In this document: positions 1,998 through 28,888 of the stretch, in pieces
Numbering within the stretch: position 1 is the first letter of the stretch
Layout of the letters: each line of letters starts with the position of its first letter
Source: an uncultured Rhodospirillales bacterium
Lineage (GTDB): Bacteria; Pseudomonadota; Alphaproteobacteria; Acetobacterales; Acetobacteraceae
Assembly: GCA_903891315.1 (NCBI GenBank)
Contig: CAITEF010000050.1
Location: forward strand, 1-34,786
DNA: 34,786 bases
Direction of reading: 5' to 3'
Notes under the pieces: model-generated
The model's input: the letters and a program-made list of their open reading frames with translations, nothing else
Told to the model about the DNA's origin: nothing
Databases searched by the model: none
Translations under genes and position numbers: made by a program

Positions 1998-2957
1998 ATG
2001 TTTCGCGTGATGCTTCCTGCAGCGCTGACCCTGTGGGCCATCGCCCCGGCGTGGGGGGCTGTGCTCGCGGTCGGGCCCGGACAGACATTCGCCACCCTGG
2101 CCGCCGCCCAACAGGAGGCCCAGCCCGGCGACACGCTGCGCCTCAGCCCCGGCGTGCATCGCGACTGCCTGACCGTGCGCAAGGACGGGCTGATCATCGA
2201 GGGCAGCGGCGCGGCGGAGATCACCGAACTGGCCGGCTTTGCCTGTGACGGCAAGGCAGCTCTGGTGACGCAGGCCGCCAATATCACCGTGCGCAACCTC
2301 ACGCTGTCGCATCAGCGTGTGGCGGACGGCAATGGGGCAGGAATCCGCGCTGAAGGCACCGACCTGCTGGTCGACCATGTCCGCATCATCGACAATCAGG
2401 ACGGCATTCTGGCGGCCAGCAATCCGGGGTCGACGATCACCGTCCGTGACAGCGACTTCATCGACAACGGCACCTGCAACCCGGCCTGCGCGCACGGGAT
2501 TTACGTCGGCCATATCAAGCTGCTGCACATCGCACATTCGCGCTTTTTCGAAACCTGGCGCGCCCATCACATCAAGTCGCGCGCCCAGCGCACCGAGATC
2601 GTCGATTGTGACATCGCCGACGGCCCTCGCGGCACTGCCAGCTATGCCATCGAAATTCCCAATGGCGGGATGGTGCTGCTGCGCGGCAACCGCATCGAGA
2701 AAGGCCCGCAATCGGAGAACCATGCGGGTTTCATCGCCATCGGGGCAGAGGGCTCTCTTTATCCGGACACCGAGATCATCGCACAGGACAATGTCGCGGT
2801 CTTCGATGGGGTCTATCCCACCAGTTTCTTGCGCAATCTGACCGACTCACCAGCGCTGCTGCGCGGCAACCTCATCCCCGACGGCGTGGTGCCATTGAAG
2901 GGAGGGGGCGATATCAGCCCGGCTTCACAAGCTGATACAGCCGACGCAAAACGTTAG
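1998..2957 (+). CDS. secreted right-handed parallel beta-helix repeat protein
   Basis: About 319 residues. The N-terminus reads MFRVMLPAALTLWAIAPAWG followed by Ala-Val, a clear Sec signal peptide, so the protein should be periplasmic or exported. The mature part has pectate-lyase-like solenoid repeats: short beta strands with recurring I-x-V-x-N/D patterns such as NITVRNLTLS, DNQDGILA and SGSGAAEI-like coils. This fold is common in polysaccharide lyases, epimerases and polymer-binding proteins, and no catalytic residues can be assigned by eye. The ATG at 1998 has GGAG 7 bases upstream; an in-frame ATG at 1968 and a GTG at 1938 also exist, but starting there buries the signal peptide. It is the only plus-strand gene in the first 16 kb, and its last 44 bp overlap the convergent glycosyltransferase gene. 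No PEP-CTERM sorting tail is present. A role in EPS modification or binding is inferred from context. Confidence 0.75.
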   Translation: MFRVMLPAALTLWAIAPAWGAVLAVGPGQTFATLAAAQQEAQPGDTLRLSPGVHRDCLTVRKDGLIIEGSGAAEITELAGFACDGKAALVTQAANITVRNLTLSHQRVADGNGAGIRAEGTDLLVDHVRIIDNQDGILAASNPGSTITVRDSDFIDNGTCNPACAHGIYVGHIKLLHIAHSRFFETWRAHHIKSRAQRTEIVDCDIADGPRGTASYAIEIPNGGMVLLRGNRIEKGPQSENHAGFIAIGAEGSLYPDTEIIAQDNVAVFDGVYPTSFLRNLTDSPALLRGNLIPDGVVPLKGGGDISPASQADTADAKR

Positions 2958-3948
2958 TGGGTGCCTTGCCGAGGAACGACAGCAACAGATAGGCGATCAG
3001 CCGCGGTCGCCGATCACCAAGCCGGATCGCCTGCCAAAGATAGGGCCGCGCCTCGGCCTCCCGCCCGTCATCGAACAGCGCCGCGCCCGCCCAGGCATAG
3101 GCATCCTGCCAACGCCGCCGAACCGATGCCGCGGGCACCGAAAATCTTTCTCCAATTCGGGCGACAATCTTTTGCATCGTGGTGAGGTTCTGCAGCGCCG
3201 TGTGGGTGCGCAGACGGCTGAGCTTGTCCGCCCGACCGTTCAGGCAAATGGCCGCCGGTGTGTCGATCAGCGCGGTCAGACAGTTCTGGGTCTGGCGGGA
3301 GAAGAATTCATAATCCTCCCCAGCATTGCCCACCGCCGGGTCAAGCAAGCCGCGCTCCAGCAGAGACGCGGTTCTGATCATCGTGGTCTGGATCAACAGC
3401 AGATTGCCGAACCAGATATACTCGCCAAGATTGCCGATGCGAACCGTGATTGTTTTCTGCTGCCCATGTTCCGTTGCCACATTCAGCGTCTCGGTGCGCG
3501 GAAACATCTCGATATCTTTGAGATAGGACAGTGCTTTCTGATGAAAGCTGCGCAGCGAGCTGGTGAACACCACTGATCCGTCAAGCTCGATCGAGCGCGC
3601 ATCGGTGTAGACGATCGAAAGCTCAGGGAATCTCTGAAAGACGTCGATCTGTGCGGCGATTTTCCAATTCTCCCAGGCATCATCGGAATCGAGAAAGGCG
3701 ATGAACGCGCCACGGGCGGCCTGAATTCCGGCATTGCGGGCATGGCCGACGCCCGCGTTGGGCTGAAAGATCGGCTCAATCCGGTCGCCATAGCCGCGCA
3801 GCACGTCGCGCGTGCCGTCGGTCGAACCGTCATCGACCACCACGACCTGAATGTTCGGGTAGGTCTGCGCCAGAACACTGTCGATGGCCTTGCCGACAAT
3901 CTCGGCGCGATTATAGGTCGGTATGATCGCCGTCACGAGGGGTTGCAT
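2914..3948 (-). CDS. family 2 glycosyltransferase
   Basis: GT-A fold glycosyltransferase of 344 residues, acting in the cytoplasm on a lipid-linked glycan with a nucleotide-sugar donor. The start VTAIIPTYNRAE, the VVVVDDGSTDGT motif (Asp39/Asp40) and the metal-binding DSDD at 87-90 are all typical of family 2. The ATG at 3948 follows a GAGG 8 bases upstream and lies 19 bp after the end of the ATP-grasp/phosphatase gene, so it is the last gene of that minus-strand operon. Its 3' end overlaps the convergent beta-helix gene. The sugar transferred cannot be read from sequence. Confidence 0.88.
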   Translation of the reverse strand: MQPLVTAIIPTYNRAEIVGKAIDSVLAQTYPNIQVVVVDDGSTDGTRDVLRGYGDRIEPIFQPNAGVGHARNAGIQAARGAFIAFLDSDDAWENWKIAAQIDVFQRFPELSIVYTDARSIELDGSVVFTSSLRSFHQKALSYLKDIEMFPRTETLNVATEHGQQKTITVRIGNLGEYIWFGNLLLIQTTMIRTASLLERGLLDPAVGNAGEDYEFFSRQTQNCLTALIDTPAAICLNGRADKLSRLRTHTALQNLTTMQKIVARIGERFSVPAASVRRRWQDAYAWAGAALFDDGREAEARPYLWQAIRLGDRRPRLIAYLLLSFLGKAPTNVLRRLYQLVKPG

Positions 3949-3967
3949 GTTGGTGGCCTCAAACCGA

Positions 3968-5731
3968 TCAGGCGTGGTGTTGGGCTGGGTGCAGCGCCTG
4001 TGGCTGCGGATGGGTCTGCGCGCGTCGGCTTATCACCAGCACCGCCAACGCGTCGAGCGCGCGGTCGATGCGGCGATAGGCGTGGGCGTAGACCGCTTGA
4101 CTGCCGCCATACGGGTCGTCGATCTCGCCCGATCCGTTGAAATCGCCAAGCAACACCGTCCGATCCAGCAAAGCCGGGTGGCGCGCGCGCATCGTGGCGA
4201 GGTTCTTCTCGTCGAAGGCGACGATCAGATCGGCGGCCTCTGCGACGTCCCGATCGAAATGCGACGAGCGATGCGGCGTCAAATCGAAGCCGCGCTCACC
4301 GGCTTCGGCGATCCCATTGTCGGGGGTCGGGCGACCGGGGCGCGGCAATGTGCCCGCCGAGCTGACCAGCGGGCGTTGCTCGACGGCGAACAATTGCGCG
4401 CGCAGCACCGCCTCGGCATAGGGGCTGCGGCAGATATTGCCCGCGCACAGAAAAACGATCCGCGCCGCGCCGCTCTGCGGGTGCGCCAAGGCCCGCATCA
4501 ATCTGGTCTCCGCCTGATGGCGGCGGATCACCCTATCGAAGGGCAGCCTGCGCCACAGACCGCCCAGCGCACCGCGCAATTTGTTGCCGATTTCGGCCAG
4601 ACCCGGGCGAAGATCATCGGCCACCAGCGTGTCGATATGCTCCTGCCGCAGCGGCAGACGCCGCAACTCGGCCAGCCAATTGGCAATCAGCCCAGGGGCT
4701 GCGGATCCGCCACGGCGGGCGCGGTCGGCGAGGTCGGACAGATCGGGCAGCAGATTGCGGCCATAGATTCCCAACCGGTACGGCGCGAAGGCGGTACGCT
4801 CACCCGCCAGCAACAGCCTTGCCCACGCGGCGGGAAAATCGATCCCGAGGGCCACCGGCAGCGGCATCGAGCCCCAAGGCCGCGCGTTGACTTCGAGCAG
4901 AATCCAGGCCCCGGTCTCCAAATTCTGGCGAAACTCGAACATCGCCACGCCAGTGTAGGACAGCGCCCCCAGCATGGCGGCCACACCCCGTTCCATGCCC
5001 GGATCCGGCGGGATCGAAATCCGGTAATAGCTGCCGCCCGAGGCGGTCTCGCGGATCCGGCGATGCGAAAACACCGCCAGCAGCTCGCCGCGATCGGCCA
5101 GCACCGAGACGCCGACGCCAGCGCCACGGAAAAATCCCTCGACCAGATAATCCTCGCGGCGGATCCGCTGCAGATGCTCGGCAAGCTCCTCCACGCGGTC
5201 GAGCATCTCGACCTTCCCGCGCTGATCCAGCGAGGCCATGGTGTGCGAGGCGCGCGGCTTGAGCATGATCGGCAGGCCGACGCTGGACGACAGAGTCTCG
5301 GCGGTGTCGTCGTCCCGCAGCCGCCGCCCACCCGCAATCGCCACCCCGTGTTGTGCGGCCCAATCGCGGGTGGCGGTCTTGTCGAACAGGATCTCGATGC
5401 TGCGATCATCCGGCAGCGCCAGACAGGTCAGGGGCGCGAAGCGGGCGCGATGCCGCGCCAGCGGCAGCAAAGCCGTCTCGGTGCAGGGAATGACGATGTC
5501 AAACCGCTCGCGCCGCAGCAGCGCCTCCACCGCGTCGAGCCAGCCGGATCCGTCGCCGACCCAGAGCGGCAAAGCGTGGGTTTTGGTCAAATAGCGTGAG
5601 CGCAAAGCGGGCGCGGCGAGGTCGGGTGGGGCGGCGTGGACTTCCATTCCAGCGCGACCGAGCGAACGCAGTATGGCCAGGAAGGAGCGGGTGTCGTCGC
5701 CGAACACCAGGGCTTTGCGACCGCGCAGCAT
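3968..5731 (-). CDS. ATP-grasp enzyme fused to a low-molecular-weight protein tyrosine phosphatase
   Basis: A 587 residue two-domain protein. Residues 1 to about 330 are an ATP-grasp ligase module: Rossmann-like start KALVFGDDTRSF, a LMLKP-type lysine near 157 and the metal-binding LLEVNARPWGS at 278-288. This half resembles carbamoyl-phosphate-synthase-like ATP-grasp proteins seen in polysaccharide loci. From about residue 423 a complete low-molecular-weight tyrosine phosphatase follows. Its P-loop is CAGNICRS, with the catalytic Cys429 and Arg435 of CX5R, and the general acid lies in DPYGG at 539-543. Both active sites look intact. It is the only tyrosine phosphatase in the window, whose export operon also encodes a tyrosine autokinase, so a Wzb-like counter-enzyme role is plausible but inferred. 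The gene begins 2 bp after the stop of the preceding GT2 gene, suggesting coupling. The ATP-grasp substrate is unknown. Confidence 0.85.
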   Translation of the reverse strand: MLRGRKALVFGDDTRSFLAILRSLGRAGMEVHAAPPDLAAPALRSRYLTKTHALPLWVGDGSGWLDAVEALLRRERFDIVIPCTETALLPLARHRARFAPLTCLALPDDRSIEILFDKTATRDWAAQHGVAIAGGRRLRDDDTAETLSSSVGLPIMLKPRASHTMASLDQRGKVEMLDRVEELAEHLQRIRREDYLVEGFFRGAGVGVSVLADRGELLAVFSHRRIRETASGGSYYRISIPPDPGMERGVAAMLGALSYTGVAMFEFRQNLETGAWILLEVNARPWGSMPLPVALGIDFPAAWARLLLAGERTAFAPYRLGIYGRNLLPDLSDLADRARRGGSAAPGLIANWLAELRRLPLRQEHIDTLVADDLRPGLAEIGNKLRGALGGLWRRLPFDRVIRRHQAETRLMRALAHPQSGAARIVFLCAGNICRSPYAEAVLRAQLFAVEQRPLVSSAGTLPRPGRPTPDNGIAEAGERGFDLTPHRSSHFDRDVAEAADLIVAFDEKNLATMRARHPALLDRTVLLGDFNGSGEIDDPYGGSQAVYAHAYRRIDRALDALAVLVISRRAQTHPQPQALHPAQHHA

Positions 5732-5733: not shown

Positions 5734-6741
5734 CTATTCCGACCCGGCCACGTCACCAAGCAGCAGGGCTTTGAAAATCAAACGCAACAGAACCTTGAAG
5801 GAATTCGGCGATGGCCGCAGCGCCACCGCCTCGACCGCATAGGGCAGGGCGGTGCGATAGAGTTTCTGCTCGGCGTAGAGCCGCACCAGCCGTTGCAGCG
5901 TGTAGGCGCGGTGCTTCCACGCATAGGCGCGGATCGCCGGGCTTTTCACCGACAGATGCAACCGCCCCAGGATGAACATCTGGAAGAGGCATTTCTCGGT
6001 GCCGCTCACCTGGGTGGAGACATTGGCCATCTTGCCGACCAGCGGCACGTGGTGGCGGGCGATGAATTTCGGGTCGTAGAGAATGGTCTGTGCCCGATCG
6101 AGCGCGCGATAATAAAAATCGCGGTCGCATTCATAGCGCAGATATTCATCCACGCCCTTGATGGCCGCGAACAAATCGCGATGCATGATCAGCGTGTTGA
6201 GATGGCAAAACCCATGCGCGCGGACCATGTCGGCGGCGGTGGCTTTGTAGCAGCCTTCCGGATCCGGCCCCGGCAGATTGGGCACCTTCTGCAGCAGATC
6301 GCCGATCCAGATCGGTGGCGGCAATTGGCGGCCGAGATGCCAGGCTTCCTGGTTGGCCAGATACATGTCCAACCGCCCCAGCCGGGCAATCGAGTGGCAG
6401 ACTCGGCTCAGATGCCGATCATCGATCCATTGGTCATCATCATCGAGAAAGGCGAAATATTCGCCCAGGGCAATCTCGACCCCGGTGTTGATGCCATAGG
6501 CATGGCCGTGACCGCGCGAGCGATAGGGCAGCTCGATCAGCCGGATCCTTTCGGCATATTCGGCGAACAGCGCCTGATAGGCCGCAACATGCTCGGCCTC
6601 AGACCCGTCATGCACCACGATGATCTCAAAATCCGCATCGCGTTGCGCGAGCACTGAGTCGAGTGCCACGCGAAACAAATCGGGACGGTTTCGTGTCGGA
6701 AGAATGACAGAAATCAGTGGCACGCGCGCTTCCTGGACCAC
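5734..6741 (-). CDS. family 2 glycosyltransferase
   Basis: 335 residue GT-A glycosyltransferase. ISVILPTRNRPDLF, IIVVHDGSEAEH and the acidic metal-binding run LDDDD at 99-103 mark the catalytic domain. The C-terminal third carries TPR-like helices (residues about 270-330), which some family 2 enzymes use for partner binding. The reading frame opens with GTG at 6741, immediately after the TAA of the deacetylase gene, with a poor Shine-Dalgarno. A second GTG at 6723 has AGGAAG a few bases upstream and gives a protein that starts right at the conserved PLISVILPT, so the true start may be there. It sits mid-operon between the deacetylase and the ATP-grasp/phosphatase fusion. Confidence 0.87.
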   Translation of the reverse strand: MVQEARVPLISVILPTRNRPDLFRVALDSVLAQRDADFEIIVVHDGSEAEHVAAYQALFAEYAERIRLIELPYRSRGHGHAYGINTGVEIALGEYFAFLDDDDQWIDDRHLSRVCHSIARLGRLDMYLANQEAWHLGRQLPPPIWIGDLLQKVPNLPGPDPEGCYKATAADMVRAHGFCHLNTLIMHRDLFAAIKGVDEYLRYECDRDFYYRALDRAQTILYDPKFIARHHVPLVGKMANVSTQVSGTEKCLFQMFILGRLHLSVKSPAIRAYAWKHRAYTLQRLVRLYAEQKLYRTALPYAVEAVALRPSPNSFKVLLRLIFKALLLGDVAGSE

Positions 6742-6743: not shown

Positions 6744-7745
6744 TTACTGGCGGAGTTTTACGGCTATTTCACCGAGTGAACCAGCCACGCCACCGCAATG
6801 ATTGGTAAAATACACGCAATATTGCGTGATACGCCGGAGAAATCCGTCACGTTCCGCCGTGCTTCGTACATAAGGCGTCGCCCCTGGCAACAAGGCGGAG
6901 CTGTGATAGGTCATCATGAACAGCCGCTTGCCGCGCGCCAGACCGGCATCGGTCTGGCGGATCATGTCATCAAGGCTGTGCCCCTCCGGGCTGAGGCGCA
7001 GGCGTTCGAGCAGCCCACTCCGGGCGGCGATGCCGGGCAGGCGCAGCGTGCGGGCCGCGTCTTTGTGCAAATGCGGATAGAGCGCGGGGCCGGATCCGGC
7101 CAAGCGCCCCACGAACCCGACCGAGAGCGGCAATTCCAGCAGATCAGGCAGGATCTCGAAGGGTTGATCCGGCATCGCGGAGAAATCCGGCCCGCCATCG
7201 CCGGAAAAATCGGTCCACGGCACCAGGCTGCAATCGATGCGGTAGCCAAGGTCGGCCAAGATCCCCGGCGTGGCCGGGCCGACGCCGTAGCGCCCGGCTT
7301 TGTAGATTGTCGGTTGCATGCCCAAATTCTGCGCAATCGTCCGTGTCAAATGGTCGAGCTTGGCGCGCTCCAGCGCCGGCGGCAGATTGCCGGGATAGGA
7401 CGTCCGCGCAGTGATCTCGCCCTCCAAGGGCGGATTCACCCAAGGGTGCAGATGCGCGCCAATGCTGCAACGACCTTGGGCGGCAAAACCGGCGAGCAAC
7501 TCGGCCGAGTCCCGCGTGGCGGCCACCGGATGGTCGATCACATAAGTCGGCTGAATGCCGAAACGGTCGAAAATCTCCTGCCCGCGTGGTTGCTCGGCGA
7601 TGTTGCGCACGCTGGTGGCGTTCGGGTCGAACGCCGCCCCCCAGTCGAATTCCTCCTCGGTATCGACCACCACCAACAGCGTGGGCGTCAGATCCTGTGG
7701 CACCGGAAGCGTGCGGTGACAGGGCAGGGGCATTGCCGCACTCAC
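6744..7745 (-). CDS. polysaccharide deacetylase family protein (WalW-like)
   Basis: 333 residue NodB-fold protein of carbohydrate esterase family 4, or a close relative. The first motif is VVVDTEEEFDW at 26-35, supplying the catalytic/metal aspartate. The metal histidines are in GAHLHPWVNPP near 97-99. Later motifs include KAGRYGVG, the usual RxPY-type segment in a WalW-like form, and MMTYHSSALLPG near the end. No signal peptide is evident, so it probably acts on a cytoplasmic lipid-linked sugar or nucleotide sugar; this is inference. The GTG start at 7745 overlaps the TGA of the upstream epimerase gene as GTGA, a classic translational coupling. This is the first of two unrelated-looking deacetylases in the window; the other belongs to the DUF3473 group at 22767. 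Confidence 0.85.
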   Translation of the reverse strand: MSAAMPLPCHRTLPVPQDLTPTLLVVVDTEEEFDWGAAFDPNATSVRNIAEQPRGQEIFDRFGIQPTYVIDHPVAATRDSAELLAGFAAQGRCSIGAHLHPWVNPPLEGEITARTSYPGNLPPALERAKLDHLTRTIAQNLGMQPTIYKAGRYGVGPATPGILADLGYRIDCSLVPWTDFSGDGGPDFSAMPDQPFEILPDLLELPLSVGFVGRLAGSGPALYPHLHKDAARTLRLPGIAARSGLLERLRLSPEGHSLDDMIRQTDAGLARGKRLFMMTYHSSALLPGATPYVRSTAERDGFLRRITQYCVYFTNHCGGVAGSLGEIAVKLRQ

Positions 7746-8740
7746 TCTGCCGCGGGGGCGAGCGCCATCCAGTCGCGGAACCAGGTGACGAAACGCGGAA
7801 TGCCGACCGACAGTGGTGTCGAGGGGGCAAATCCGGCCAACAGGCTGATCGCGTCCACATCGGCGCAGGTATCGGCGACATCGGCGGGCGGGCGCGGCGC
7901 GTAGGTGATGAGCGCGCGGCGGCCGAGGCCTTCTTCCAACAACGTGATCACGTTGGAGATCGGCTCGCTGCGATTGTTGCCGATATTGAGGATACGCACC
8001 GGCGGTGCGTCATTGACCGGCACTGGCGGCGGATTGTCGAGCGCGCCGAGCACGCCTTTGACGATGTCGTCGATATAGGTGAAGTCCCGCCGCACCGCGC
8101 CGCCGTCATAAACGGTGATCGGCCGCCCGGCGATGATCGCCTCGGCGAAGCTGAAATAAGCCATGTCCGGTCGGCCCCACGGGCCATACACCGTGAAGAA
8201 CCGCAAGCCGGTCTGCGGCACGCCGAACAAATGACCATAGGCATGGCTCATCAACTCGTCGGCCCGCTTGGTGGCGGCATACAGCGACAGCGGCTGGTCG
8301 ACACGGTCGGTCTCGCTGAACGGCAGCCGATCATTGCCGCCATAGACCGAGGACGAGCTGGCATAGACCAGATGGCGCAGACCACCGAGCCTGCGCGCCA
8401 GTTCGAGCACGCACAGATGGCCGAGCACGTTGGAATGCACATAGGCGTAGGGATCGACCATCGAATACCGCACCCCGGCCTGGGCTGCGAGATGGACGAT
8501 GCGGGTGATCTCCGGATGGCTGTCGGCCAGATCGAGCATCGCGGCGCGGTCGGCGATATCAAGCGGCAGGAAGCTGAAATTCGGATTTTGCCGCAGCCGC
8601 TCCAACCGGGCTTGCTTGAGGCGCACGTCATAATACGGCGTCAGATTGTCCACGCCGATCACTTGCTCACCGCGCGCCATCAGGGCTGCGGCAACATGAT
8701 ATCCGATGAAGCCGGCAACGCCCGTCAGCAGGATCGACAC
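7742..8740 (-). CDS. NAD-dependent epimerase, UDP-glucuronate 4-epimerase type
   Basis: Extended short-chain dehydrogenase/reductase of 332 residues that interconverts UDP-glucuronate and UDP-galacturonate by family. The Rossmann motif is GVAGFIG at 7-13. The catalytic residues are in SSSSVYGG (about 128-135) and YAATK (Tyr154, Lys158). LRFFTVYGPWGRPDMAYF is characteristic of the CapI/LpsL group. It opens the operon: GTG at 8740 preceded by AGGAG with a 7 base spacer, behind an 85 bp gap that contains a promoter-like AT-rich element. It makes galacturonate likely in the exported polymer, an inference from the family. The downstream deacetylase overlaps by 4 bp. Confidence 0.9.
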   Translation of the reverse strand: MSILLTGVAGFIGYHVAAALMARGEQVIGVDNLTPYYDVRLKQARLERLRQNPNFSFLPLDIADRAAMLDLADSHPEITRIVHLAAQAGVRYSMVDPYAYVHSNVLGHLCVLELARRLGGLRHLVYASSSSVYGGNDRLPFSETDRVDQPLSLYAATKRADELMSHAYGHLFGVPQTGLRFFTVYGPWGRPDMAYFSFAEAIIAGRPITVYDGGAVRRDFTYIDDIVKGVLGALDNPPPVPVNDAPPVRILNIGNNRSEPISNVITLLEEGLGRRALITYAPRPPADVADTCADVDAISLLAGFAPSTPLSVGIPRFVTWFRDWMALAPAAE

Positions 8741-8774
8741 GCAAAGCTCCTATTGGCGGACGATGACTGAGATT

Positions 8775-8800: not shown

Positions 8801-8825
8801 CGTGTAAAGCTCCTAGACTCGGGCA

Positions 8826-12104: not shown

Positions 12105-14873
12105 TCAGTTGTCGCGCAGTTCCCTCACCAGCTTCCGCGCGTCCTCCTGCTCGGGGAAGGCGGTTTCCTGTTCGGCGAGCGGCCGCACGATCGTCATCGC
12201 CTCCAACCGCTTGCCCGATTGCGCCAAGGCGGTGGCGTAATGGAACTGCACCGTCGGGTCACCCTTCAGCACCGCCACCGCCTGCGACAACAGCGGCACG
12301 GCGGCGGCGGCCTGCTTGGACTGCACCAGGATCCAGCCGAGCGTGTCGGCGTTCGGTGCGGTCGGCTGCAGCACGAAAGCGCGGCGCGCCAACGCCAAGG
12401 CGCGCGGGTCCTTCTTGGTGGCATACATCCAGGCGAGATTGTTCATCGTCACCGGATTGTCGGGCTCGCTCTCGTTGAGCCGCTCCAGCATCGAGATCGC
12501 CTCGTCGTTCTTGCCGGTGGCGATCTTGAGGTCGGAGGCCATATGCAGCACCCGCGCATCGTTCGGGTTGCTCTTCAGCCACTCATCCATCACCTCGGCC
12601 GCCCGCGTCGGCTGCTGCGACGCGCCATAGGCGCTGGCGGCGTTGACGACCAGATCGGTGGTCGGATGCTGCTTGATCTGCTCGACATAAAGCTCGGCAG
12701 CGATCGGGAATTTGCGCAGCACCATCGCCAGATCGGCGCGCAGGATCGGCGCGTAGGCCGCGGTGGCCGGGTCGCTTTCCAGCTTGGCGATCTGCAGATT
12801 GGCCGCGGCTTCGCCGCCCCGGAAATACTCGTTGCCGATCAGCAGGCGCATCAGCTGCATGTCGTCGGGGCTGAATTTCAGCGCGGCCAGCGCGGTGTCG
12901 CGCGCACCGTCCAAGTCGCGGCGCGATTGCTGCAACGCCATCATCTCGCCGATCGCCTGCGGCTCGCCGGGCTGCTTGATCAGGATCTGGCGATAGGCCT
13001 CCATCGCCATGTCGACCTGCCGGTCGGCCTCCAGCGCATGGGCGCGCACCAGCAATTCCGGTGTGGTCGGAGCGCCGCCCTTGGGCACCAATTGGTCCAG
13101 CAGTTTCAACGCTTTGGCGGCCTGATTGGCATCGACATAGAGTGCTGCCAATGTCAGCCCGATCTTCCGGTTCTCCGGTGCCGCCTCAACGGCGGCTTCC
13201 AGCACCGTCACGGCGCGCTGCGTGCGCTGTGTGCCGGTCAGCAGCGGCAGGATAACATTGAGCGCGGGCTCGTTGGCCGGATTCTGCGCGAGAATCTGGT
13301 TGAGCGCCGCCTCGGCGTCGTTGGTCCGGCCCTGGATCTCGTCGAGTTGGGCCATCGCGATGCGGGGGCGAATCGATGTCGGGTTGGCCTCCATCAGGCG
13401 CTGATATTGCAGCCGCGCGCCGTCATATTCCTGGCGCATCACCAGAACCATCGCGTTGATCAACCCGATCTCTTCGGTGGCCCCCTGCTGGATTCGCATC
13501 TGCTCCAGCGCCTTGGCGGCCCCGTCGAGGTCGCCGGCGCGCAAGGCCGCCATCGTGGCCAGCCGGTCCGGGTCTTTCGAATCCAGGGTCATTTTGATGC
13601 CCCCCGGCAATTCGCGCGGATCGCTGGGACCACCCAGCACCGCCTGCCCCAGGAGCCCCTTGCCGGCCAAACGCTGCGGTGCCACCGCCAGCGCGCTGTC
13701 CAGGCTGCGCACCGCCTCGCCGGGCTTGCCGGCGGCGATATAGGCCTGGCTAAGCAGGTTGAGCGTCTCGGAATCGGACAGGCCGAGACGCAGCGCCTTC
13801 TGTAGGGTCTCGATCGCCTGATCGGGACGTTTGGACGCCACCTGGGCGGTGGCCAACAGCTTCACGCCGTCAATATCCGCCGGGTGACGGGTGTAATACC
13901 GGTTCGCATAGTCAAGCGCCTGCTGGACCTGGCCGAGTTCGAGCTTGACCACGGCCAGGAAGAAATTGGCGCGCGGGAAGCGGTCCATCACGGTGGACAG
14001 TTTTTGGAACTCAAGGTCGGCTTGTGCTGCGCGATGTGCGCGGGTCAGCAGCACCGCGTTGAGATAGACGGCCGCCGCAGAATTTGGCTGCTGCTTGGTG
14101 ATCTCGTCGAGATCTTGCCTGGTGCGGTCATCCTGGCCCAGATCGAGCTCGATATTGGCGCGTTCGAGCCTTGCAGCCACGAAGCGCGGCGCGATGCTGA
14201 CGGCGTTGTTGAGAGTCTCTAGAGCGGATTGGCGATTGCCGCGCGCAACCGCCACCTGCGCCTTGAGCAGCATGGCGTCGACGCGTCGCGGATCGATCGC
14301 CAACGCACGATCGATCTTCTCCTGCGCCAAAATCAGGTCACCCTGGCTCATGGCGATGCGGGCGGCGGTCAGCGGCACCGAGGCCGAGCGCGGCGAGGAT
14401 TTCTCGGCGGTCGCCAATGCCTCCAGCGCCGCCGGCTGATCGCCCTGGGTGGCCAATGCCAACGCGCGGATCAGCAGCAATTGCGCGGTCAGATCGGCGG
14501 TGGTCAGTGGCGGGGTGAATTTTTCCAGCAACTGCTTGTTGTTGCCCTGCAGCAGATAGCTCTGCGCCAGCAGCACCGGCAGATCGCTCTGCTTGCCGCC
14601 CAGCGATTGAGTGCTCTCAAGCTCCTTCTGGGCGGCAACCGCATCGCCAAGCTGCAGCAGAGTGTAGCCAAGGCGGTAATGCGCATCCATGTCGCTGGGA
14701 TCGTCACGCACCGCATTGCGCAACTCCAGGGCCGCCAGCCGCAAATCGCCGGTTTGCATGGCCTGTTTGGCAATGCCCATATGATCGGGGCGGCGGCCGA
14801 ACTTCCACCAGGCCGCTCCACCTGCCGCACCGAGGACCATCACCGCGAGCAGAATCAACAGAAGCTTTTTCAT
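12105..14873 (-). CDS. membrane-anchored TPR protein, PEP-CTERM system-associated (PrsT-like)
   Basis: 922 residues. After MKKLLLILLAVMVLGAAGGAAWW, a single N-terminal transmembrane anchor, the whole protein is built of tandem tetratricopeptide repeats (roughly 20 units of about 34 residues, for example DLRLAALELRNAVRDDPSD and the C-terminal NDEAISMLERLNESEPDN). Length and context match the TPR protein of XrtA systems, proposed to scaffold synthesis and export in the periplasm. Family members are commonly described as lipoproteins, but no lipobox cysteine is seen here, so this copy appears anchored by its helix. ATG at 14873 was chosen because it starts the anchor directly; a GTG at 14906 is in frame. 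It lies 132 bp after the sugar transferase gene and just before the GT4 gene. Confidence 0.88.
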   Translation of the reverse strand: MKKLLLILLAVMVLGAAGGAAWWKFGRRPDHMGIAKQAMQTGDLRLAALELRNAVRDDPSDMDAHYRLGYTLLQLGDAVAAQKELESTQSLGGKQSDLPVLLAQSYLLQGNNKQLLEKFTPPLTTADLTAQLLLIRALALATQGDQPAALEALATAEKSSPRSASVPLTAARIAMSQGDLILAQEKIDRALAIDPRRVDAMLLKAQVAVARGNRQSALETLNNAVSIAPRFVAARLERANIELDLGQDDRTRQDLDEITKQQPNSAAAVYLNAVLLTRAHRAAQADLEFQKLSTVMDRFPRANFFLAVVKLELGQVQQALDYANRYYTRHPADIDGVKLLATAQVASKRPDQAIETLQKALRLGLSDSETLNLLSQAYIAAGKPGEAVRSLDSALAVAPQRLAGKGLLGQAVLGGPSDPRELPGGIKMTLDSKDPDRLATMAALRAGDLDGAAKALEQMRIQQGATEEIGLINAMVLVMRQEYDGARLQYQRLMEANPTSIRPRIAMAQLDEIQGRTNDAEAALNQILAQNPANEPALNVILPLLTGTQRTQRAVTVLEAAVEAAPENRKIGLTLAALYVDANQAAKALKLLDQLVPKGGAPTTPELLVRAHALEADRQVDMAMEAYRQILIKQPGEPQAIGEMMALQQSRRDLDGARDTALAALKFSPDDMQLMRLLIGNEYFRGGEAAANLQIAKLESDPATAAYAPILRADLAMVLRKFPIAAELYVEQIKQHPTTDLVVNAASAYGASQQPTRAAEVMDEWLKSNPNDARVLHMASDLKIATGKNDEAISMLERLNESEPDNPVTMNNLAWMYATKKDPRALALARRAFVLQPTAPNADTLGWILVQSKQAAAAVPLLSQAVAVLKGDPTVQFHYATALAQSGKRLEAMTIVRPLAEQETAFPEQEDARKLVRELRDN

Positions 14874-15005
14874 GGAAGATCGCCAACGCCCCGCCAGAAC
14901 ACGCACCGCGAATGCCGCAGCGCCCTTGTCTCGTCAATCAGACACTACTCCGCCGAAGCTGCCTTGCCCAGATCATCGCACCCGAGCAACCGGGCACAGC
15001 GGCAA

Positions 15006-17422: not shown

Positions 17423-18982
17423 ATGGATGGTATTCGCGAACTCATTCTCCGCAAGCTTCAGGCGGTCTGGCAACGCCGCTGGATTGCGGTGGTGGCTGCC
17501 TGGGTGGTCTGCGCGGCTGGCTGGGCCGGGGTGATGACGATCCCCAACCAGTATGAGTCAAGCGCCCGTCTCTTCGTCGATTCCGACGCCGTGCTGACCC
17601 CGCTGCTGCGCGGCGTGTCTCTGGACACTTCGGGGAACAATGAACTCGACACGCTGCAGCGCACTTTGCTCAGCCGCCCCAATCTGGAGCGGCTGATCTC
17701 GAAAACCGATCTGGAGCTCAGCCTCACCGGTCCAGCGGACAAGGAGCGGCTGGTGCAGTCGTTGGCAAGTGCGATTCGCATCGCCCCGCAGACCAAGAAT
17801 CTGTTCACCATCTCCTACCGCAATTCCAATCCGAAGCTCGCGCTGGACGTGGTGCAAAATGTGCTGACCACCTTCCTTGAAAGCCGGGTTGGCACCAGCC
17901 GTGCGGATATCGAAAACGCGCAGAACTTCATCTCCTCGCAGATCGACAATTACGAACGCCAATTGCGTGACGCCGAACGCAAGCGCGCCGAATTTCGGGT
18001 GAAATACATCGATCTTCTGCCAGGTGATGGCGGCGTGTCGCGCTACGAGATGGCCACCGAGCAGGTGCGCAGGATGCGCGGTGTGCTGGAGGATGCGCGC
18101 AATCGCCAAGCCGCCATCGCCAAGGCGCTGAGTGCGACGCCCCCAATGCTGCAGGCCGAACAGGTGGCGGCGATGCAAGGTGGTGGCGGTGGTGGCGGCA
18201 ATCCCGAATTGGCGGCGGCCGAGCGCCGGCTGTCCGAACTCAAGCTGCGCTTCACCGACGAATATCCTGATGTGATCGCGCAGAAGCGCCTGATCGAGGC
18301 GCTGCGTTCGGGGCAGATTTCCTCCCCCAGCGCCGCGGCACCCTCGGTGCCGCGACCGGTCACACAGGCAAACCCACAGGGCGGTCGTCAGGTGCCGAAC
18401 CCGGTCTACGAGCAGCTCAAGGTACGCCTGGTGGAAAACGAGGCGGCGATTGCATCCATCGAACGCCAGATCAGCGAAGCCGACCGTGATCGCGGTCGCT
18501 TGGAAGAGATCGCCCGCGGAGCGCCCGGATTGCAGGCGGAGTTCATCAATCTCAACCGCGACTATGACGTCGTGCGCAGGAATTACGACGAGTTGCTCTC
18601 GCGTCGCGAACAGATGCGTATCGCCTCTGCGGCCGACTCTGAAGCCAACAAGGTGAAGGTGCAGATCATCGACCCGCCGCTGCGGCCTCGCACCCCGGTG
18701 GCACCGAAACGTGAGTTGCTCCTCTCCGCGGTGCTCCTTGCGGGTGTGGCGGCTGGCGTTGTGCTGGCACTGCTGCTCAACGAGGTCGACACGTCGTTTC
18801 AGAGTGTTGACGATTTGCGGGTGCTCGGCCTCCCGGTGGTCGGCGGTATTTCGGTGATCGCCGTGGCCATCCCGGCTTGGCGACGGGTGTTCAGCATCGG
18901 AACCGTGGCAACGGCGATGCTGATGTTGTGTGCAATCTATGGCGGGTTGATCTATCGCCTGTCGCAGGCAGGTGTGGTTTGA
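17423..18982 (+). CDS. polysaccharide chain-length determinant (Wzz family), XrtA-associated
   Basis: 519 residue inner-membrane co-polymerase. The first transmembrane helix is at about 19-37 (RWIAVVAAWVVCAAGWAG). A long periplasmic coiled-coil region follows, with QIDNYERQLRDAERKRAEFR and a glycine run of seven residues near 210-217. The C-terminal helices begin LLLSAVLLAGVAAGVVLALLL, and a further hydrophobic helix closes the protein. The conserved PPLRPRTPVAPKR motif precedes the second helix. There is no kinase domain; that function is in the next gene. Starts 12 bp after the Wza-like gene. Sets polymer length and couples to the tyrosine kinase by family knowledge. Confidence 0.92.
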   Translation: MDGIRELILRKLQAVWQRRWIAVVAAWVVCAAGWAGVMTIPNQYESSARLFVDSDAVLTPLLRGVSLDTSGNNELDTLQRTLLSRPNLERLISKTDLELSLTGPADKERLVQSLASAIRIAPQTKNLFTISYRNSNPKLALDVVQNVLTTFLESRVGTSRADIENAQNFISSQIDNYERQLRDAERKRAEFRVKYIDLLPGDGGVSRYEMATEQVRRMRGVLEDARNRQAAIAKALSATPPMLQAEQVAAMQGGGGGGGNPELAAAERRLSELKLRFTDEYPDVIAQKRLIEALRSGQISSPSAAAPSVPRPVTQANPQGGRQVPNPVYEQLKVRLVENEAAIASIERQISEADRDRGRLEEIARGAPGLQAEFINLNRDYDVVRRNYDELLSRREQMRIASAADSEANKVKVQIIDPPLRPRTPVAPKRELLLSAVLLAGVAAGVVLALLLNEVDTSFQSVDDLRVLGLPVVGGISVIAVAIPAWRRVFSIGTVATAMLMLCAIYGGLIYRLSQAGVV

Positions 18983-19887
18983 GCGACTCTGACAAGTCAG
19001 CACATATGGCCGAACGCGCGGCCGCGCGGCTGGCCGCTATGTCCGATTCCGCTGCCGCACTGGCATCGTCAAAACCGGCTTCGCCACCCGCACCGCCGGG
19101 CATGGCGTCGATCCTGCGCGACAGCGACCCGGTGACGCCGGATTTCTCCGCCGAGCCGCCCACTGAGATCGTCAATATCGGCACGCTGCTCGCGGCCGGC
19201 ATGGTGGTCAGCGGCACCAACCGCACCCGTATCTCCGAGGAATACCGCATCGCGGTCAGTCGCATCCTGCGCAACTCGGTGCGACGCAATCCGAACGCCC
19301 AGAAGGGCGAGCTGATCATGGTGACCAGCGCGCGACCGGGCGAGGGGAAAAGCTTCACCGCGCTCAACTTGGCCGGCGCCATCGCGCACAATGTGATGCG
19401 GCCAACCGTGCTGGTCGATGTCGATTTCAAGAAGCGCTCACTGACCCATCTGCTGCGATTGTCCGACCGCAAGGGCCTGCTCGACGTGGCCTCCACCGGA
19501 CGTGTCTCGGCGGAAAGCCTGATCATCCCGACCGCGATCGACCATTTGTCGATTCTGCCGGTCGGTCGTGACGCTGGTGACCTTGAGGGCGGGCTGGAAC
19601 GTCGACCGGTGTCGCAGGTCATCGACTACCTCGCCAGCCGTTTCCCGGAATGTCTGTTCATCCTCGATCTGCCGCCTTGCCTGTCGACGTCGGACCCCAG
19701 CACGCTGGCACCGGTGGTCAATGAGGCGATTATGGTGGTCGAAGCCGAACGAACGCAACGCGCGGAAGTCGAATCGGCGCTTGATCTGATAAAGCTGTGT
19801 CCGAAGGTCACGGTGCTTCTCAACAAAATCCGCACCACGCGGCGGAACACTTTTGGAGCCTATGATTATTATGGTTCCTATTCCTGA
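18979..19887 (+). CDS. XrtA-associated tyrosine autokinase (BY-kinase)
   Basis: 302 residue cytoplasmic bacterial tyrosine kinase. Walker A is SARPGEGKS at 117-125, Walker A' is VLVDVDFKK at 144-152 and Walker B is FILDLPP at 227-233. The C-terminal tyrosine cluster YDYYGSYS holds Tyr295, 297, 298 and 301, the expected autophosphorylation sites. I prefer the TTG at 18979, which overlaps the previous stop as TTGA and has AGG 6 bases upstream. It gives an N-terminus ending in AERAAARL, which resembles the family's ERAAARL box. An ATG at 19006 gives a product nine residues shorter. Works with the chain-length protein; the phosphatase domain encoded at 3968 could reverse its phosphorylation (inferred). 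Confidence 0.88.
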   Translation: MSDSDKSAHMAERAAARLAAMSDSAAALASSKPASPPAPPGMASILRDSDPVTPDFSAEPPTEIVNIGTLLAAGMVVSGTNRTRISEEYRIAVSRILRNSVRRNPNAQKGELIMVTSARPGEGKSFTALNLAGAIAHNVMRPTVLVDVDFKKRSLTHLLRLSDRKGLLDVASTGRVSAESLIIPTAIDHLSILPVGRDAGDLEGGLERRPVSQVIDYLASRFPECLFILDLPPCLSTSDPSTLAPVVNEAIMVVEAERTQRAEVESALDLIKLCPKVTVLLNKIRTTRRNTFGAYDYYGSYS

Positions 19888-22766: not shown

Positions 22767-23663
22767 ATGTCAGCCCCCCTCCCCTCGCCTTTGGTGCATG
22801 CCCAGGTGGCGCATGCCCAGGTGGCGCATGCAATGACGGTGGATGTGGAGGATTATTTCCACGTCCAGGCGTTCGCGGGCGTGATCGACCCGGCGAACTG
22901 GGACAGCCTGCCGCGGCGGGTTGAGGCGAACACCGACCGCATCCTGGCGTTGCTTGACGCAAAGGGCGTCAAGGCGACGATGTTCACCTTGGGCTGGGTG
23001 GCCGAGCGGCATCCGCAGATTGTCCGCCGGATCGTGGCCGCTGGGCATGAACTGGCCAGCCACGGTTATGGCCATCAGCGGGTCGACGTGATCGGTCCCG
23101 AGGCATTCCGTGCCGATATCAGCCGGGCACGCGCGCTGCTGGAGGATATTGGCGGGGTGGCGGTGCGTGGCTATCGGGCGCCGACCTTCTCGATCGGGCC
23201 GCATACGCCATGGGCCTATGACATCCTCGCCGAGACCGGACACGCCTATTCATCGAGCCTCTACCCGGTGCGCCACGATCTTTACGGCGCGCCGGACGCG
23301 CCGCGTTTCCCGTATCGACCGGGCGATGGTCGGATTTGCGAGCTGCCGATGAGCACGGTCGATCTGTTCGGCCAGAATCTTCCGGTCTCCGGCGGCGGCT
23401 ATTTTCGCCTGTTGCCCTACGCGCTCTACCGCTTCGGCTTTTCGCGGTTTGCGGCAAGCACCGGCCAGTCTGGTATTTTCTACACCCACCCCTGGGAGAT
23501 CGACCCCGGTCAGCCGCGCATTGCCAACGCCTCGCGTCTGTCGAAATTCCGGCATTATCTGAATCTTCATCGTTGTGCGGGCCGTCTGCAGTCGCTGCTG
23601 GCTGATTTTGTTTGGGACAGGGTGGACCGGGTCTATGCCGGGGCGATAGACCGCACGGCATGA
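22767..23663 (+). CDS. XrtA system polysaccharide deacetylase (DUF3473 group)
   Basis: 298 residue NodB-type deacetylase. The motifs are TVDVEDYFHVQAF (catalytic/metal Asp), ELASHGYGHQRV (metal histidines), RGYRAPTFSIG and FYTHPWEID, and the C-terminal part matches the DUF3473 extension of the exosortase-linked group. The start at 22767 is supported by AAGGCGG with a 7 base spacer and lies 2 bp after the ATPase stop. It adds about 22 residues before the conserved core, including the repeated HAQVAHAQVAHA made by a 15 bp tandem repeat. An ATG at 22833 would start at the core but has no good ribosome binding site. Probably deacetylates N-acetyl sugars of the polymer. Confidence 0.9.
   Translation: MSAPLPSPLVHAQVAHAQVAHAMTVDVEDYFHVQAFAGVIDPANWDSLPRRVEANTDRILALLDAKGVKATMFTLGWVAERHPQIVRRIVAAGHELASHGYGHQRVDVIGPEAFRADISRARALLEDIGGVAVRGYRAPTFSIGPHTPWAYDILAETGHAYSSSLYPVRHDLYGAPDAPRFPYRPGDGRICELPMSTVDLFGQNLPVSGGGYFRLLPYALYRFGFSRFAASTGQSGIFYTHPWEIDPGQPRIANASRLSKFRHYLNLHRCAGRLQSLLADFVWDRVDRVYAGAIDRTA
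22796..22831 (+). repeat. 15 bp tandem repeat, about 2.4 units, inside the deacetylase 5' end
   Basis: The unit GCATGCCCAGGTGGC occurs at 22796-22810 and 22811-22825 and is followed by GCATGC. The two full copies are identical. Because the unit is a multiple of three, changes in copy number would alter the length of the HAQVA-repeat N-terminus without shifting the frame. Each unit contains the palindrome GCATGC. Confidence 0.9.
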
Positions 23664-24700
23664 CCACGATCTGCACCCAGCATGACCCGTCCGCCGACGC
23701 GGAATGGGACGATTTTGTCGCCCGCCATCCGGACGGCACCTTCTTCCACCGCGCCGCCTGGGCGCATGTGCTGCGAACGGCGTTCGGCCACAATCCGCAT
23801 TTCCTGGTCGCCCGCCGGGCCGGTGCCATCGTCGGCGTGCTGCCGCTGGCGCATCAGATGAGCCTGATCTTTGGCCAATCGCTGATTTCGCTGCCGTTCT
23901 GTGTCTATGGCGGGCCTTTGGTCGCCGACGAAGCGGCCGGGATCGCGTTGCGCGAGGCCGCCGAGGCGTTGATGCGCAAGCTCGGCCTGTCGGTGATGGA
24001 ATGGCGCACCCGCGAAGCCTCCCCTGCCCTCACACCCGGTTGGCAGGCGCGCGACGATCTTTACGTGACGTTCCGCAAGCCGATCTCGGCGGATGACGAC
24101 GCCAATCTGAAAGCCATCCCGCGCAAGCAGCGCGCGGTGGTACGCAAGGGCATCGATGGCGGGCTGACCTCCATCGTTGATCAGGACACCGACCGCCTGC
24201 ACCGCATCTATGCCGAAAGCGTGCGCAATCTCGGAACGCCCGTCTTTTCAAGGCGGTATTTCAGCATCCTCAAACAGACCTTTGGCGCCGAGATGGATGT
24301 TCTCACCGTGATGGAAGACGACCAGCCGCGCGCCTCGGTGCTGAATTTCTACTGGCGCGACGAGGTGCTGCCCTATTACGGCGGCGGCACGGCGGCGGCA
24401 CGGGCGTGTCACGCCAATGATTTCATGTATTGGGACGTGATGCGCCACGCTGCCCGTCGCGGCTGTCGGCTGTTCGATTACGGCCGCAGCAAAGTCGGCA
24501 CCGGGGCTTATTCCTTCAAGAAAAATTGGGGATTCACGCCAGAGCCCCTGCCCTATCGGTTCTTCCTGGCGCCGGGCGTTGCAATTCCCGATCACAATCC
24601 GCTCAATCCGAAATATCGTCTGTTCATCGCGGCATGGAAGAAACTGCCGTTGCCAATTGCCAACCTGATTGGGCCGGCCATCGTGCGGGGCCTCGGCTAG
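23660..24700 (+). CDS. FemAB-like GNAT-fold protein, XrtA/PEP-CTERM-associated
   Basis: 346 residue protein of the FemAB-related group that accompanies exosortase A. DGTFFHRAAWAHVLRTAFGH, LPLAHQMSLIFG, IPRKQRAVVRKG and LFDYGRSKVGTGAYSFKKNWGF are recognisable family segments, and the last is the conserved C-terminal acyl-acceptor region. The ATG at 23660 overlaps the deacetylase stop as ATGA, while the open frame to 23612 lies inside the deacetylase gene. Its reaction is not established; relatives transfer aminoacyl groups from tRNA or acyl groups. The operon context suggests it modifies the polysaccharide or its lipid carrier. Confidence 0.88.
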   Translation: MTTICTQHDPSADAEWDDFVARHPDGTFFHRAAWAHVLRTAFGHNPHFLVARRAGAIVGVLPLAHQMSLIFGQSLISLPFCVYGGPLVADEAAGIALREAAEALMRKLGLSVMEWRTREASPALTPGWQARDDLYVTFRKPISADDDANLKAIPRKQRAVVRKGIDGGLTSIVDQDTDRLHRIYAESVRNLGTPVFSRRYFSILKQTFGAEMDVLTVMEDDQPRASVLNFYWRDEVLPYYGGGTAAARACHANDFMYWDVMRHAARRGCRLFDYGRSKVGTGAYSFKKNWGFTPEPLPYRFFLAPGVAIPDHNPLNPKYRLFIAAWKKLPLPIANLIGPAIVRGLG

Positions 24701-24730: not shown

Positions 24731-26266
24731 ATGACCGCTGACGCCAAGGCCGCCTCCCCTCTCGCCGAACTCGACCGGCTCGGCCCGGTGGCGCTGCTGA
24801 TCGGCGTGATCACGCTGCTGTTGCTCGCCGCCTTCCAGGATGAGAGCCGGGCGGCGGTGCAGGTCTGGATCGACAGCACCGCTTATGGGCATTGCTTCTT
24901 CGTAGCACCAATCGCCGCCTATCTTGCCTGGGAGCGGCGTGACGCGATTGCGGCGACCACGGTGCGCCCGCTGCCCTGGCTGGCGCTGTTGGCGCTCCCC
25001 GGCGCGCTGGTGTGGTTCGCCGTCGAGCGGTTGGGCATCATGGAAGGCCAGCAACTGGTCGCCATGACCGGGCTGCAGTTGATCTGCCTCGCCGCCTTGG
25101 GCTGGCAGCGCTATCGTGCGCTGTCGGTGCCGCTGCTCTATCTGTTCTTCCTGGTGCCGTTTGGCGCCTTCCTCACCTCGGCGCTGCAGAATTTCACCCT
25201 CCAATTCATCCTGGTCGGCCTCGATCTGCTGGGGCTGCCAAATTCCTCCGACGGGATGCTGATCACCATCCCGGAAGGCCGCTTCCTGGTGGCCGAGGCC
25301 TGCGCGGGGCTGCGCTTCCTGATCGCCTCGATTGCTTTCGGGGCCCTCTATGCCTGCCTGATCTACAGCAGCATCTACAAACGCGTGCTGTTCATCGCGG
25401 CCTCGATTGTCATCCCGGTGGTGGCGAACGGGTTTCGCGGCCTGGGCACGGTCTATCTCGGCCACGTCCTCGGCAGCGCCGAGGCGGCAGCGGTGGACCA
25501 CGTGCTGTATGGCTGGGTGTTTTTCAGCATCGTGATCCTAATGCTGATCGGTGCCGGATTGCCGTTCCGCGAGGATGAAAACCTGCCGCCTACCCCGGAG
25601 GCCGCGCCGCCCACGCCGCCCGCCACATTGCGCCACGCCGCACTTGCTGGTGGGATGACGCTTGCGTTGTTCTGCTTGCCCAGCCTCGCCTCTGCGCTTG
25701 CGGTGCGCACAACCACCCCTGCCCTGCCGCCGGTTGGCGCGACGGACAGTATCGCCGGATGTTTCCCGGCCCAGGGCGGCCCGCAAGCACAGGCTGGCTC
25801 ACTGGTCTGGAGCTACACCTGCCCGGTCGCTGCCGGTCCGGTCGACCATCTGGTGCTGCGGATCAACCTGTTGTCACGCTACGCCAGCCCCGGCACCGTG
25901 CTGCGGCTGCGGCGTGAGGCCACCGGTGAGATCGGGGCCGAGGATGTCAACACCTATGCCTATTCCGGCGGGACGGATGCCGCTTGGACCGGAGTTGAGA
26001 CCACCGAGCCCGATCGGGTGGCCGCCTATGCCGCCTGGATCGACGGCCTGCCCGCGCGCGGTGGCTGGGAACTTCGAATCCGTGCCGCCTTGGCCAGCCT
26101 GTCGCCGACCGGCCGCCCGCCGGTGGTGATCACCATCAGCTCACCGGACAGCGTCACCGCTCTCAGCCCGCAGGACCGCAATTCGCTGCGCAACGGCGTG
26201 GCGGGGCTGGTCAATCTCAATCGCGGTATGTCCGCCACCGCCGCCCGAATCGTCAGCCAACCCTGA
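24731..26266 (+). CDS. xrtA: exosortase A with C-terminal periplasmic domain
   Basis: 511 residue inner-membrane protease/transpeptidase. About eight hydrophobic helices fill residues 17-277. The catalytic triad of the family is visible: Cys191 in EACAGLRF, Arg236 in NGFRGLG and His257 in VDHVLYGW. After a proline-rich linker (about 285-300) and another hydrophobic helix, residues 325-511 form a soluble C-terminal domain, similar in position to the EpsI domain fused to many exosortase A proteins; I did not see a strong EpsI motif. ATG at 24731 follows a GGAG 12 bases upstream. It ends the export operon, and the plasmid iterons begin about 20 bp later. It should cleave PEP-CTERM tails, but no such substrate gene is visible here. 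Confidence 0.9.
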   Translation: MTADAKAASPLAELDRLGPVALLIGVITLLLLAAFQDESRAAVQVWIDSTAYGHCFFVAPIAAYLAWERRDAIAATTVRPLPWLALLALPGALVWFAVERLGIMEGQQLVAMTGLQLICLAALGWQRYRALSVPLLYLFFLVPFGAFLTSALQNFTLQFILVGLDLLGLPNSSDGMLITIPEGRFLVAEACAGLRFLIASIAFGALYACLIYSSIYKRVLFIAASIVIPVVANGFRGLGTVYLGHVLGSAEAAAVDHVLYGWVFFSIVILMLIGAGLPFREDENLPPTPEAAPPTPPATLRHAALAGGMTLALFCLPSLASALAVRTTTPALPPVGATDSIAGCFPAQGGPQAQAGSLVWSYTCPVAAGPVDHLVLRINLLSRYASPGTVLRLRREATGEIGAEDVNTYAYSGGTDAAWTGVETTEPDRVAAYAAWIDGLPARGGWELRIRAALASLSPTGRPPVVITISSPDSVTALSPQDRNSLRNGVAGLVNLNRGMSATAARIVSQP

Positions 26267-26656: not shown

Positions 26657-26689
26657 TCGGCGACACTGCCACACAGCGGAGCTAAGGTG

Positions 26690-27724: not shown

Positions 27725-27726
27725 CA

Positions 27727-28886: not shown

Positions 28887-28888
28887 TC

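Follow-up and report, generated by a model that had tools for sequence, protein, structure and literature searches.

A putative ATP-grasp ligase joined to a low-molecular-weight tyrosine phosphatase in XrtA exopolysaccharide loci

Introduction

What does a tyrosine phosphatase do when it is built into a ligase? The low-molecular-weight protein tyrosine phosphatases (LMW-PTPs) Wzb, AmsI and VpsU are single-domain proteins of exopolysaccharide (EPS) loci, and VpsU, according to the available portions of one report, acts on the kinase VpsO in Vibrio cholerae (PMC7485978). In contrast, an uncultured Rhodospirillales bacterium of the family Acetobacteraceae (assembly GCA_903891315.1, contig CAITEF010000050.1) carries such a phosphatase as the C-terminal half of an ATP-grasp ligase, encoded on the strand opposite to that of the EPS kinase. 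The whole stretch of DNA that was analysed, 34,786 nucleotides, is referred to here as the window. A preliminary description of the window, made from its letters alone, had proposed that the fused phosphatase is a built-in partner of the EPS tyrosine kinase. We found no description of an ATP-grasp–tyrosine phosphatase fusion in the portions available to us of the open-licence literature on ATP-grasp, BY-kinases, exosortase/PEP-CTERM systems and exopolysaccharide.

Results

Domains, fold and active sites of the fusion protein

The fusion gene and its two domains are located as follows.

3968..5731, minus strand: fusion of an ATP-grasp ligase with an LMW protein tyrosine phosphatase (587 aa; start codon ATG at 5731)
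4577..5731, minus strand: ATP-grasp ligase domain, residues about 1-385 (range from the fold match), with K118, K158, E198, E266, E280, N282 and R284
4046..4459, minus strand: LMW-PTP domain, residues 425-562 (from Pfam LMWPc and conservation), with C429, N432, I433, R435, S436 and D539-P540

That an ATP-grasp ligase is joined to a tyrosine phosphatase, as first described, was confirmed at the same coordinates, with the gene on the minus strand: a stop codon interrupts the plus-strand reading of 3968-5731, and the minus reading gives the 587-aa protein. A plus-strand open reading frame at 3923-5599 (558 aa) was rejected as a chance frame opposite the fusion gene, the domains being found in the minus frame. 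The residues originally named for the two sites, Cys429, Arg435 and DPYGG (539-543) in the phosphatase and LLEVNAR (278-284) in the ligase, are present as stated; judged from the sequence, both sites are complete and look catalytic.

Residues 425-562 scored 86.5 bits against Pfam LMWPc (cut-off 23.2), with the CX5R P-loop and the DP general acid present, and a profile of this domain matched Wzb (2fek) and AmsI (4d74). With Wzb, AmsI and VpsU the domain shares the fold family, the CX5R P-loop, an Ile of the phosphotyrosine (pTyr) type, the DP acid and a location in EPS loci that include a BY-kinase.

The ATP-grasp half is weak by sequence, since in the window protein ATPgrasp_Ter scored 26.8 bits, under its cut-off of 29.1, and the PRK12767 models were all far under theirs. 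The AlphaFold model of the fusion (57-sequence alignment; mean pLDDT 95.3, pTM 0.92) matched PylC (Z 27.1, 294 residues, rmsd 3.1) and 2pn1 (Z 26.9, 299 residues, rmsd 3.7) over the ligase half, and this fold, together with the conserved catalytic Lys/Glu/Asn set, places the protein in the ATP-grasp superfamily. The top folds include the amide-forming PylC and the L-amino-acid ligase 3vot; the carboxylases PurK and biotin carboxylase match residues ~1-385 at similar Z (26 to 27), which counts against a firm assignment of amide formation to this half. The protein thus has in common with the PRK12767/ATPgrasp_Ter group (2pn1), PylC and the L-amino-acid ligases the ATP-grasp fold of residues 1-385, with two Lys and an acidic/Asn set, but differs from the PRK12767/ATPgrasp_Ter ligases in scoring below the curated cut-offs and in carrying a phosphatase. 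Among the PDB sequence matches listed (47, then the best 60 of 73), no chain spans both fusion domains, each representing one domain only. All but two of the VIA-align rows end at about residue 390; the phosphatase half is hardly tested there and is covered by the sequence searches.

Distribution and common descent of the two halves

The preliminary description had suggested a search for the ATP-grasp plus LMWPc architecture in XrtA loci. It was found there repeatedly, and 60 other full-length fusions, all from other records, align with the window protein; an assembly or annotation artefact is thereby ruled out. Relatives were sought in one genome per species (84,980 species), which gave 113 stretches with a relative, and 80 loci were kept. 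The aligned set of 61 full-length fusions comprises 59 of the 80 named loci, together with a protein from a Vibrio plasmid and that of the window; its rows are not independent, as L080 and L111 are 99% identical and L043 and L047 are 93% identical. The ATP-grasp frame also bears a phosphatase P-loop in 61 of 81 loci (L035-L115). By record, the fused relatives belong to the Alpha-, Beta- and Gammaproteobacteria and to one Krumholzibacteriia MAG, and a single-sequence query of a viral sequence collection found no relative of the fusion. Within the source family the fusion is present in 12 of 200 genomes, the source genome included; the copy in G004 is truncated by the end of its contig, and that in G198 lies in two pieces on two contigs. 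The genome counts given here are based largely on draft assemblies, and several L loci appear to belong to genomes already counted under G labels.

Both active sites are conserved across this set. In the phosphatase, C429, N432, R435, S436, D539 and P540 are invariant in 61/61 aligned fusions; in the ligase, the same holds for K118, K158, E266, E280, N282 and R284, and E198 is kept in 60/61. The 61 phosphatase domains differ from each other at 64% of positions on average. Distances between ligase domains correlate with distances between phosphatase domains (0.86; reached in 0 of 999 permutations), and 60 of the 61 phosphatase domains from fusions group in a single clade relative to 51 stand-alone domains (FastTree local support 0.84). 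From the distance correlation and the single phosphatase clade, the fusion appears to be of single origin and inherited as a unit; a single origin with co-inheritance of the two domains is therefore probable. The odd phosphatase domain is that of L110, which groups with divergent outgroups; this locus (9980-11716) also has the most divergent fused P-loop, CRGNQFRS.

Three further observations on the relatives may be recorded. Locus L114 has an unlinked version of the pair, i.e. separate ATP-grasp and LMWPc genes ~1.2 kb apart on opposite strands, and the separate ATP-grasp proteins of L114 and L108 exceed the ATPgrasp_Ter cut-off. The L114 region at 8240-11161 is an XrtA-like locus, with relatives of the XrtA-type deacetylase and of FemAB, in a genome without an XrtA match. 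Finally, the fusions of L111 and of Alteromonas portus (L080) share 99% identity, though the L111 record is titled as a Rhodospirillaceae MAG; either the record is mislabelled or a transfer was very recent.

Association with XrtA

The window holds the following genes of an XrtA/PEP-CTERM locus.

12105..14906, minus strand: PrsT, XrtA-system TPR protein (TIGR02917, 522.6 bits)
17423..18982, plus strand: XrtA-system polysaccharide chain length determinant (TIGR03007, 439.9 bits)
18979..19887, plus strand: XrtA-type tyrosine autokinase with a Tyr-rich C-terminal tail, TFGAYDYYGSYS (TIGR03018, 152.4 bits, under the cut-off of 230.65)
22767..23663, plus strand: XrtA-system polysaccharide deacetylase (TIGR03006, 413.4 bits)
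23612..24700, plus strand: FemAB-family XrtA-associated protein (TIGR03019, 454.5 bits)
24731..26266, plus strand: exosortase XrtA (TIGR03109, 274.7 bits; cut-off 208)

That the fusion belongs to XrtA loci is borne out by its distribution. XrtA scored above cut-off in 58/62 fusion genomes (below cut-off in G233, none found in G004, G165 and G211), as compared with 3/13 genomes that have ATP-grasp-only relatives (Fisher p 2.9e-7). L035, L111, L115 (broken frame) and L060, L062 and L063 (contig end before the phosphatase) stand outside the 62-genome counts. In the family sample, XrtA was found in 10/12 fusion genomes and in 65/188 others (Fisher p 0.001). The fusion is optional in XrtA/PEP-CTERM loci, being present in 10/75 XrtA genomes of the family sample. 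In 25 genomes, among the matches listed, the fusion and XrtA genes share a contig, at a distance of 8.1 to 55.2 kb; the fusion on the Vibrio alfacsensis plasmid, 31% identical to that of the window, likewise lies within an XrtA locus.

Genes adjoining the fusion

The fusion gene belongs to a minus-strand run that proceeds, in order, from the epimerase (8740-7742) through the CE4-fold gene (7745-6744) and a glycosyltransferase (6741-5734) to the fusion, and from there to a second glycosyltransferase (3948-2914).

7742..8740, minus strand: NAD-dependent epimerase/dehydratase, overlapping the next gene
6744..7745, minus strand: CE4-fold polysaccharide-deacetylase-like protein (PDL), from model and fold match; commonly next to the fusion in relatives
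5734..6741, minus strand: family 2 glycosyltransferase (GT2), with a 2-base gap to the fusion
2914..3948, minus strand: family 2 glycosyltransferase (GT2), downstream of the fusion
32310..33413, plus strand, elsewhere in the window: GNAT (Acetyltransf_6) protein

A right-handed beta-helix protein (PF13229; 1938-2957) is convergent with the GT2 gene that ends this run.

PDL matched no family in Pfam or NCBIfam. Its model (pLDDT 94.8) has the CE4/NodB fold, with a putative polysaccharide deacetylase, 3rxz_B, as the best PDB fold match (Foldseek E 1.0e-9, TMt 0.61). A PDL-like sequence was observed in 56/61 fused loci, within 250 bases of the fusion in 48/61, and in 0/13 ATP-grasp-only loci; it is upstream of the fusion in some relatives and downstream in others, and in the window one GT2 gene separates the two. 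Apart from the window's own PDL, the eight best-matching sequences all come from fusion genomes. PDL homologues also exist without the fusion, PDL being found in 78/200 family genomes and the fusion in 12; when the neighbours of PDL were inspected in 8 stretches of XrtA genomes that lack the fusion, none resembled it (best two matches per predicted gene). In four loci of XrtA genomes without the fusion, L219 (1646-3595), L222 (3473-5719), L220 (3929-6493) and L221 (2344-5481), PDL lies inside long predicted frames with glycosyltransferase similarity, and these are possibly GT-PDL fusions.

The Pfam family of the GNAT protein at 32310..33413 also occurs fused N-terminally to ATP-grasp-LMWPc, giving triple fusions of ~945 aa, in three relatives (L037, L038 and L054). 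A GNAT-like sequence is present within 5 kb in 29/61 fused loci, as against 1/13 ATP-grasp-only loci.

The fused phosphatase as partner of the EPS kinase

If the fused phosphatase were the equivalent of Wzb, it would act on the XrtA autokinase by dephosphorylating its Tyr-rich tail, and so tie the ligase to the kinase cycle. That the fusion is real and that both its sites look catalytic, as the preliminary description would have it, agrees with our observations, and so do its place in XrtA loci and the pTyr-type Ile433; a special tie to the kinase is not supported. The VpsU–VpsO precedent cited above supports such a role, as does the P-loop Ile. Also in its favour, no separate Wzb-like gene was detected in a genome-wide search of the source genome (completeness 96.15%). 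The claim that the fusion holds the only phosphatase domain stands in that sense but not literally, as there are 3 further LMWPc matches; by motif reading, two have ArsC-like P-loops and one has Asp for the catalytic Cys. The last, on contig C524 of the source genome (L002, 1462-2049; 78 bits), has an apparent signal peptide and the motif VDTGNTGRS, and from these sequence features is a candidate exported pseudophosphatase. Among the matches listed, the fusion is the sole LMWPc match in 8/62 fusion genomes.

Tyrosine-rich kinase tails do accompany the fusion. At least 2 Tyr in the last 25 residues were present in 46/49 fusion genomes (9 of the family and 40 outside it), and all 40 fusion genomes read outside the family have at least 3, so that pTyr substrates would be at hand. 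However, the tails are equally common without the fusion. Tails were read in 70 of the 72 matched family genomes (G039 and G050, the weakest matches, were excluded, and 4 of the 70, without an XrtA match, were placed in neither group); those with at least 2 Tyr were found in 52/57 XrtA genomes without the fusion and in 6/9 with it, a difference that runs, if anything, in the opposite direction and is not significant (Fisher p 0.07). Among the matches listed, 25/75 family XrtA genomes are without any LMWPc match, and the Tyr tail is kept in 18/21 of such genomes that were read. Because the tails are present regardless of the fusion, the fusion is neither required for the kinase tail nor tracks it, and co-evolution with the tail, tested as proof of partnership, was rejected, no such association being found. 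In G058, G134 and G183, fusion genomes that belong to a single genus, the kinase has one tail Tyr, yet the phosphatase site is intact (L011-L013). At least three other fusion genomes (G219, G232 and G246) have a stand-alone LMWPc gene ~3 kb from the kinase.

The gene arrangement also departs from that of a Wzb-type gene, which is separate and beside its BY-kinase. The fusion was said to lie in a different operon from the kinase, and strand and distance agree with this, the kinase being on the plus strand and 13.2 kb away; it is the CE4-fold gene, rather than the kinase, that usually adjoins the fusion. On balance, the fusion is possible as a built-in partner of the EPS kinase but is not favoured in that role by its distribution, and we consider Wzb equivalence doubtful; the fusion may act on the kinase tail all the same.

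CpsB/CapC (PHP-type) phosphatases, considered as the missing partner of the kinase, were found in 0 of 200 genomes of the family, and this candidate was rejected. These counts indicate that the Tyr-tailed EPS kinases of the family are often without a detectable LMW-type or CpsB-type phosphatase, among the matches listed. Stand-alone LMWPc genes of 99 bits or more were found, among the matches listed, in 41 family genomes, only one of which has XrtA; contrary to what one might expect, strong stand-alone LMW-PTPs hardly ever coexist with XrtA in the family (1/41 vs 74/159; Fisher p 1e-8, uncorrected for kinship).

Substrate-related residues of the phosphatase pocket

The fifth position of the P-loop (Ile433 in the window protein) is Ile in 58 of the 61 fusions, Val in 2 and Gln in 1. 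According to the portions available of PMC8001253, Ile at this position marks the pTyr type and Thr the phosphoarginine type; the window protein is therefore unlike arginine phosphatases of the YwlE/PtpB type.

A second position is less uniform. The residue that follows the catalytic DP, residue 541, is aromatic in 30/61 fusions (Y 27, W 3; the rest are D 15, E 6, I 5, V 4 and A 1), compared with 30/30 stand-alone relatives (Fisher p 1.7e-7), the latter being 30 of the 41 strong stand-alone genes and all from one family. Presumably, this residue stacks on the phosphotyrosine ring. It is Tyr in the window protein and in the gammaproteobacterial rows, and Asp, Glu or Ile in the betaproteobacterial rows. 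In this variability the fusion relatives differ from Wzb, AmsI and VpsU. As the residue next to DP is variable and the chemistry residues are invariant, the pocket has evidently drifted in part of the fusion family with its chemistry kept. A relation between the number of tail Tyr and residue 541 was sought outside the family and rejected (21 genomes with an aromatic residue, mean 4.6; 19 with a non-aromatic one, mean 4.8).

The drift favours an alternative in which the phosphatase half acts not on pTyr but on a small-molecule or glycan phosphate, e.g. a sugar phosphate or a modification intermediate, and so contributes a metabolic reaction coupled to ligation; the biosynthetic genes that adjoin the fusion are consistent with this. 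Against it, Tyr is retained at residue 541 in the window protein and the gammaproteobacterial fusions, the stand-alone set used for comparison was drawn from one family only, and residue 541 does not follow the kinase tails, which have at least 3 Tyr in 40/40 genomes outside the family. We also know of no LMW-PTP that acts on a sugar phosphate, and regard this alternative as unlikely. A passive role of the phosphatase half, as a scaffold without catalysis or a passenger domain, for which nothing speaks except the drift of some pocket residues, is highly improbable given the invariance of C429, R435 and D539 in 61/61 domains that differ so widely from each other.

Discussion

The reading that we prefer, with a probability of roughly 0.4, is that the fusion serves XrtA/PEP-CTERM exopolysaccharide loci as an accessory enzyme with two functions, in which a glycan-modification ligase and an in-cis phosphatase operate within a CE4/GT/GNAT module. 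We infer its chemistry, substrates and regulation as follows. The ATP-grasp half would activate a carboxylate with ATP and couple it to an amine, probably with formation of an amide, and the amine acceptor would most likely be a sugar deacetylated by the neighbouring CE4-fold protein. The LMW-PTP half, a predicted active phosphatase, would remove phosphate inside this modification module; its targets may be tyrosines phosphorylated by the BY-kinase, either in the ligase or in the adjoining glycosyltransferase or deacetylase. In this way ligation would respond to the state of the kinase, and the LMW-PTP domain would not be the kinase's own housekeeping phosphatase. Several observations count against this reading: the GT2 gene between fusion and PDL, the occurrence of PDL without the fusion, the presence of GNAT-like sequences near only 29/61 fusions and the absence of an XrtA match from the genome of L114. 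We know of no phosphotyrosine in the ligase or in the neighbouring proteins.

A broader proposal, that the fusion represents a new bifunctional class in which an LMW-PTP was recruited from kinase control to biosynthesis, with a non-tyrosine phosphate, or else its own module, as the target beside ATP-grasp ligation and CE4 deacetylation in three classes of Proteobacteria, seems to us rather unlikely as it stands.

The recurrence of the fusion, with both sites intact, in polymer loci of distantly related bacteria suggests a physical link there between the removal of phosphate and the assembly of the polymer. Ligase and phosphatase in one chain, with sites intact across the Alpha-, Beta- and Gammaproteobacteria, offer a testable handle on the coupling of Tyr phosphorylation to polymer assembly, and the fusion predicts an unrecognised amide-type modification of XrtA-locus polymers. 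An analogy, and only that, may be drawn with the animal C7orf58-type proteins, described in the available portions of PMC2824669 as fusions of ATP-grasp and PC-esterase domains and predicted there to modify surface polymers. These likewise join an ATP-grasp ligase to a hydrolase, but the hydrolase is an esterase rather than a phosphatase, the proteins are eukaryotic and their ATP-grasp domain is of the TTL type.

The replicon of the window may also be considered. Directly after the XrtA gene, at 26687-29746, are plasmid-type RepA (PF04796), ParA and ParB genes, and their position beside XrtA raises the possibility that the EPS locus is plasmid-borne or part of a second replicon. In Vibrio alfacsensis, too, the related fusion is encoded on a plasmid.
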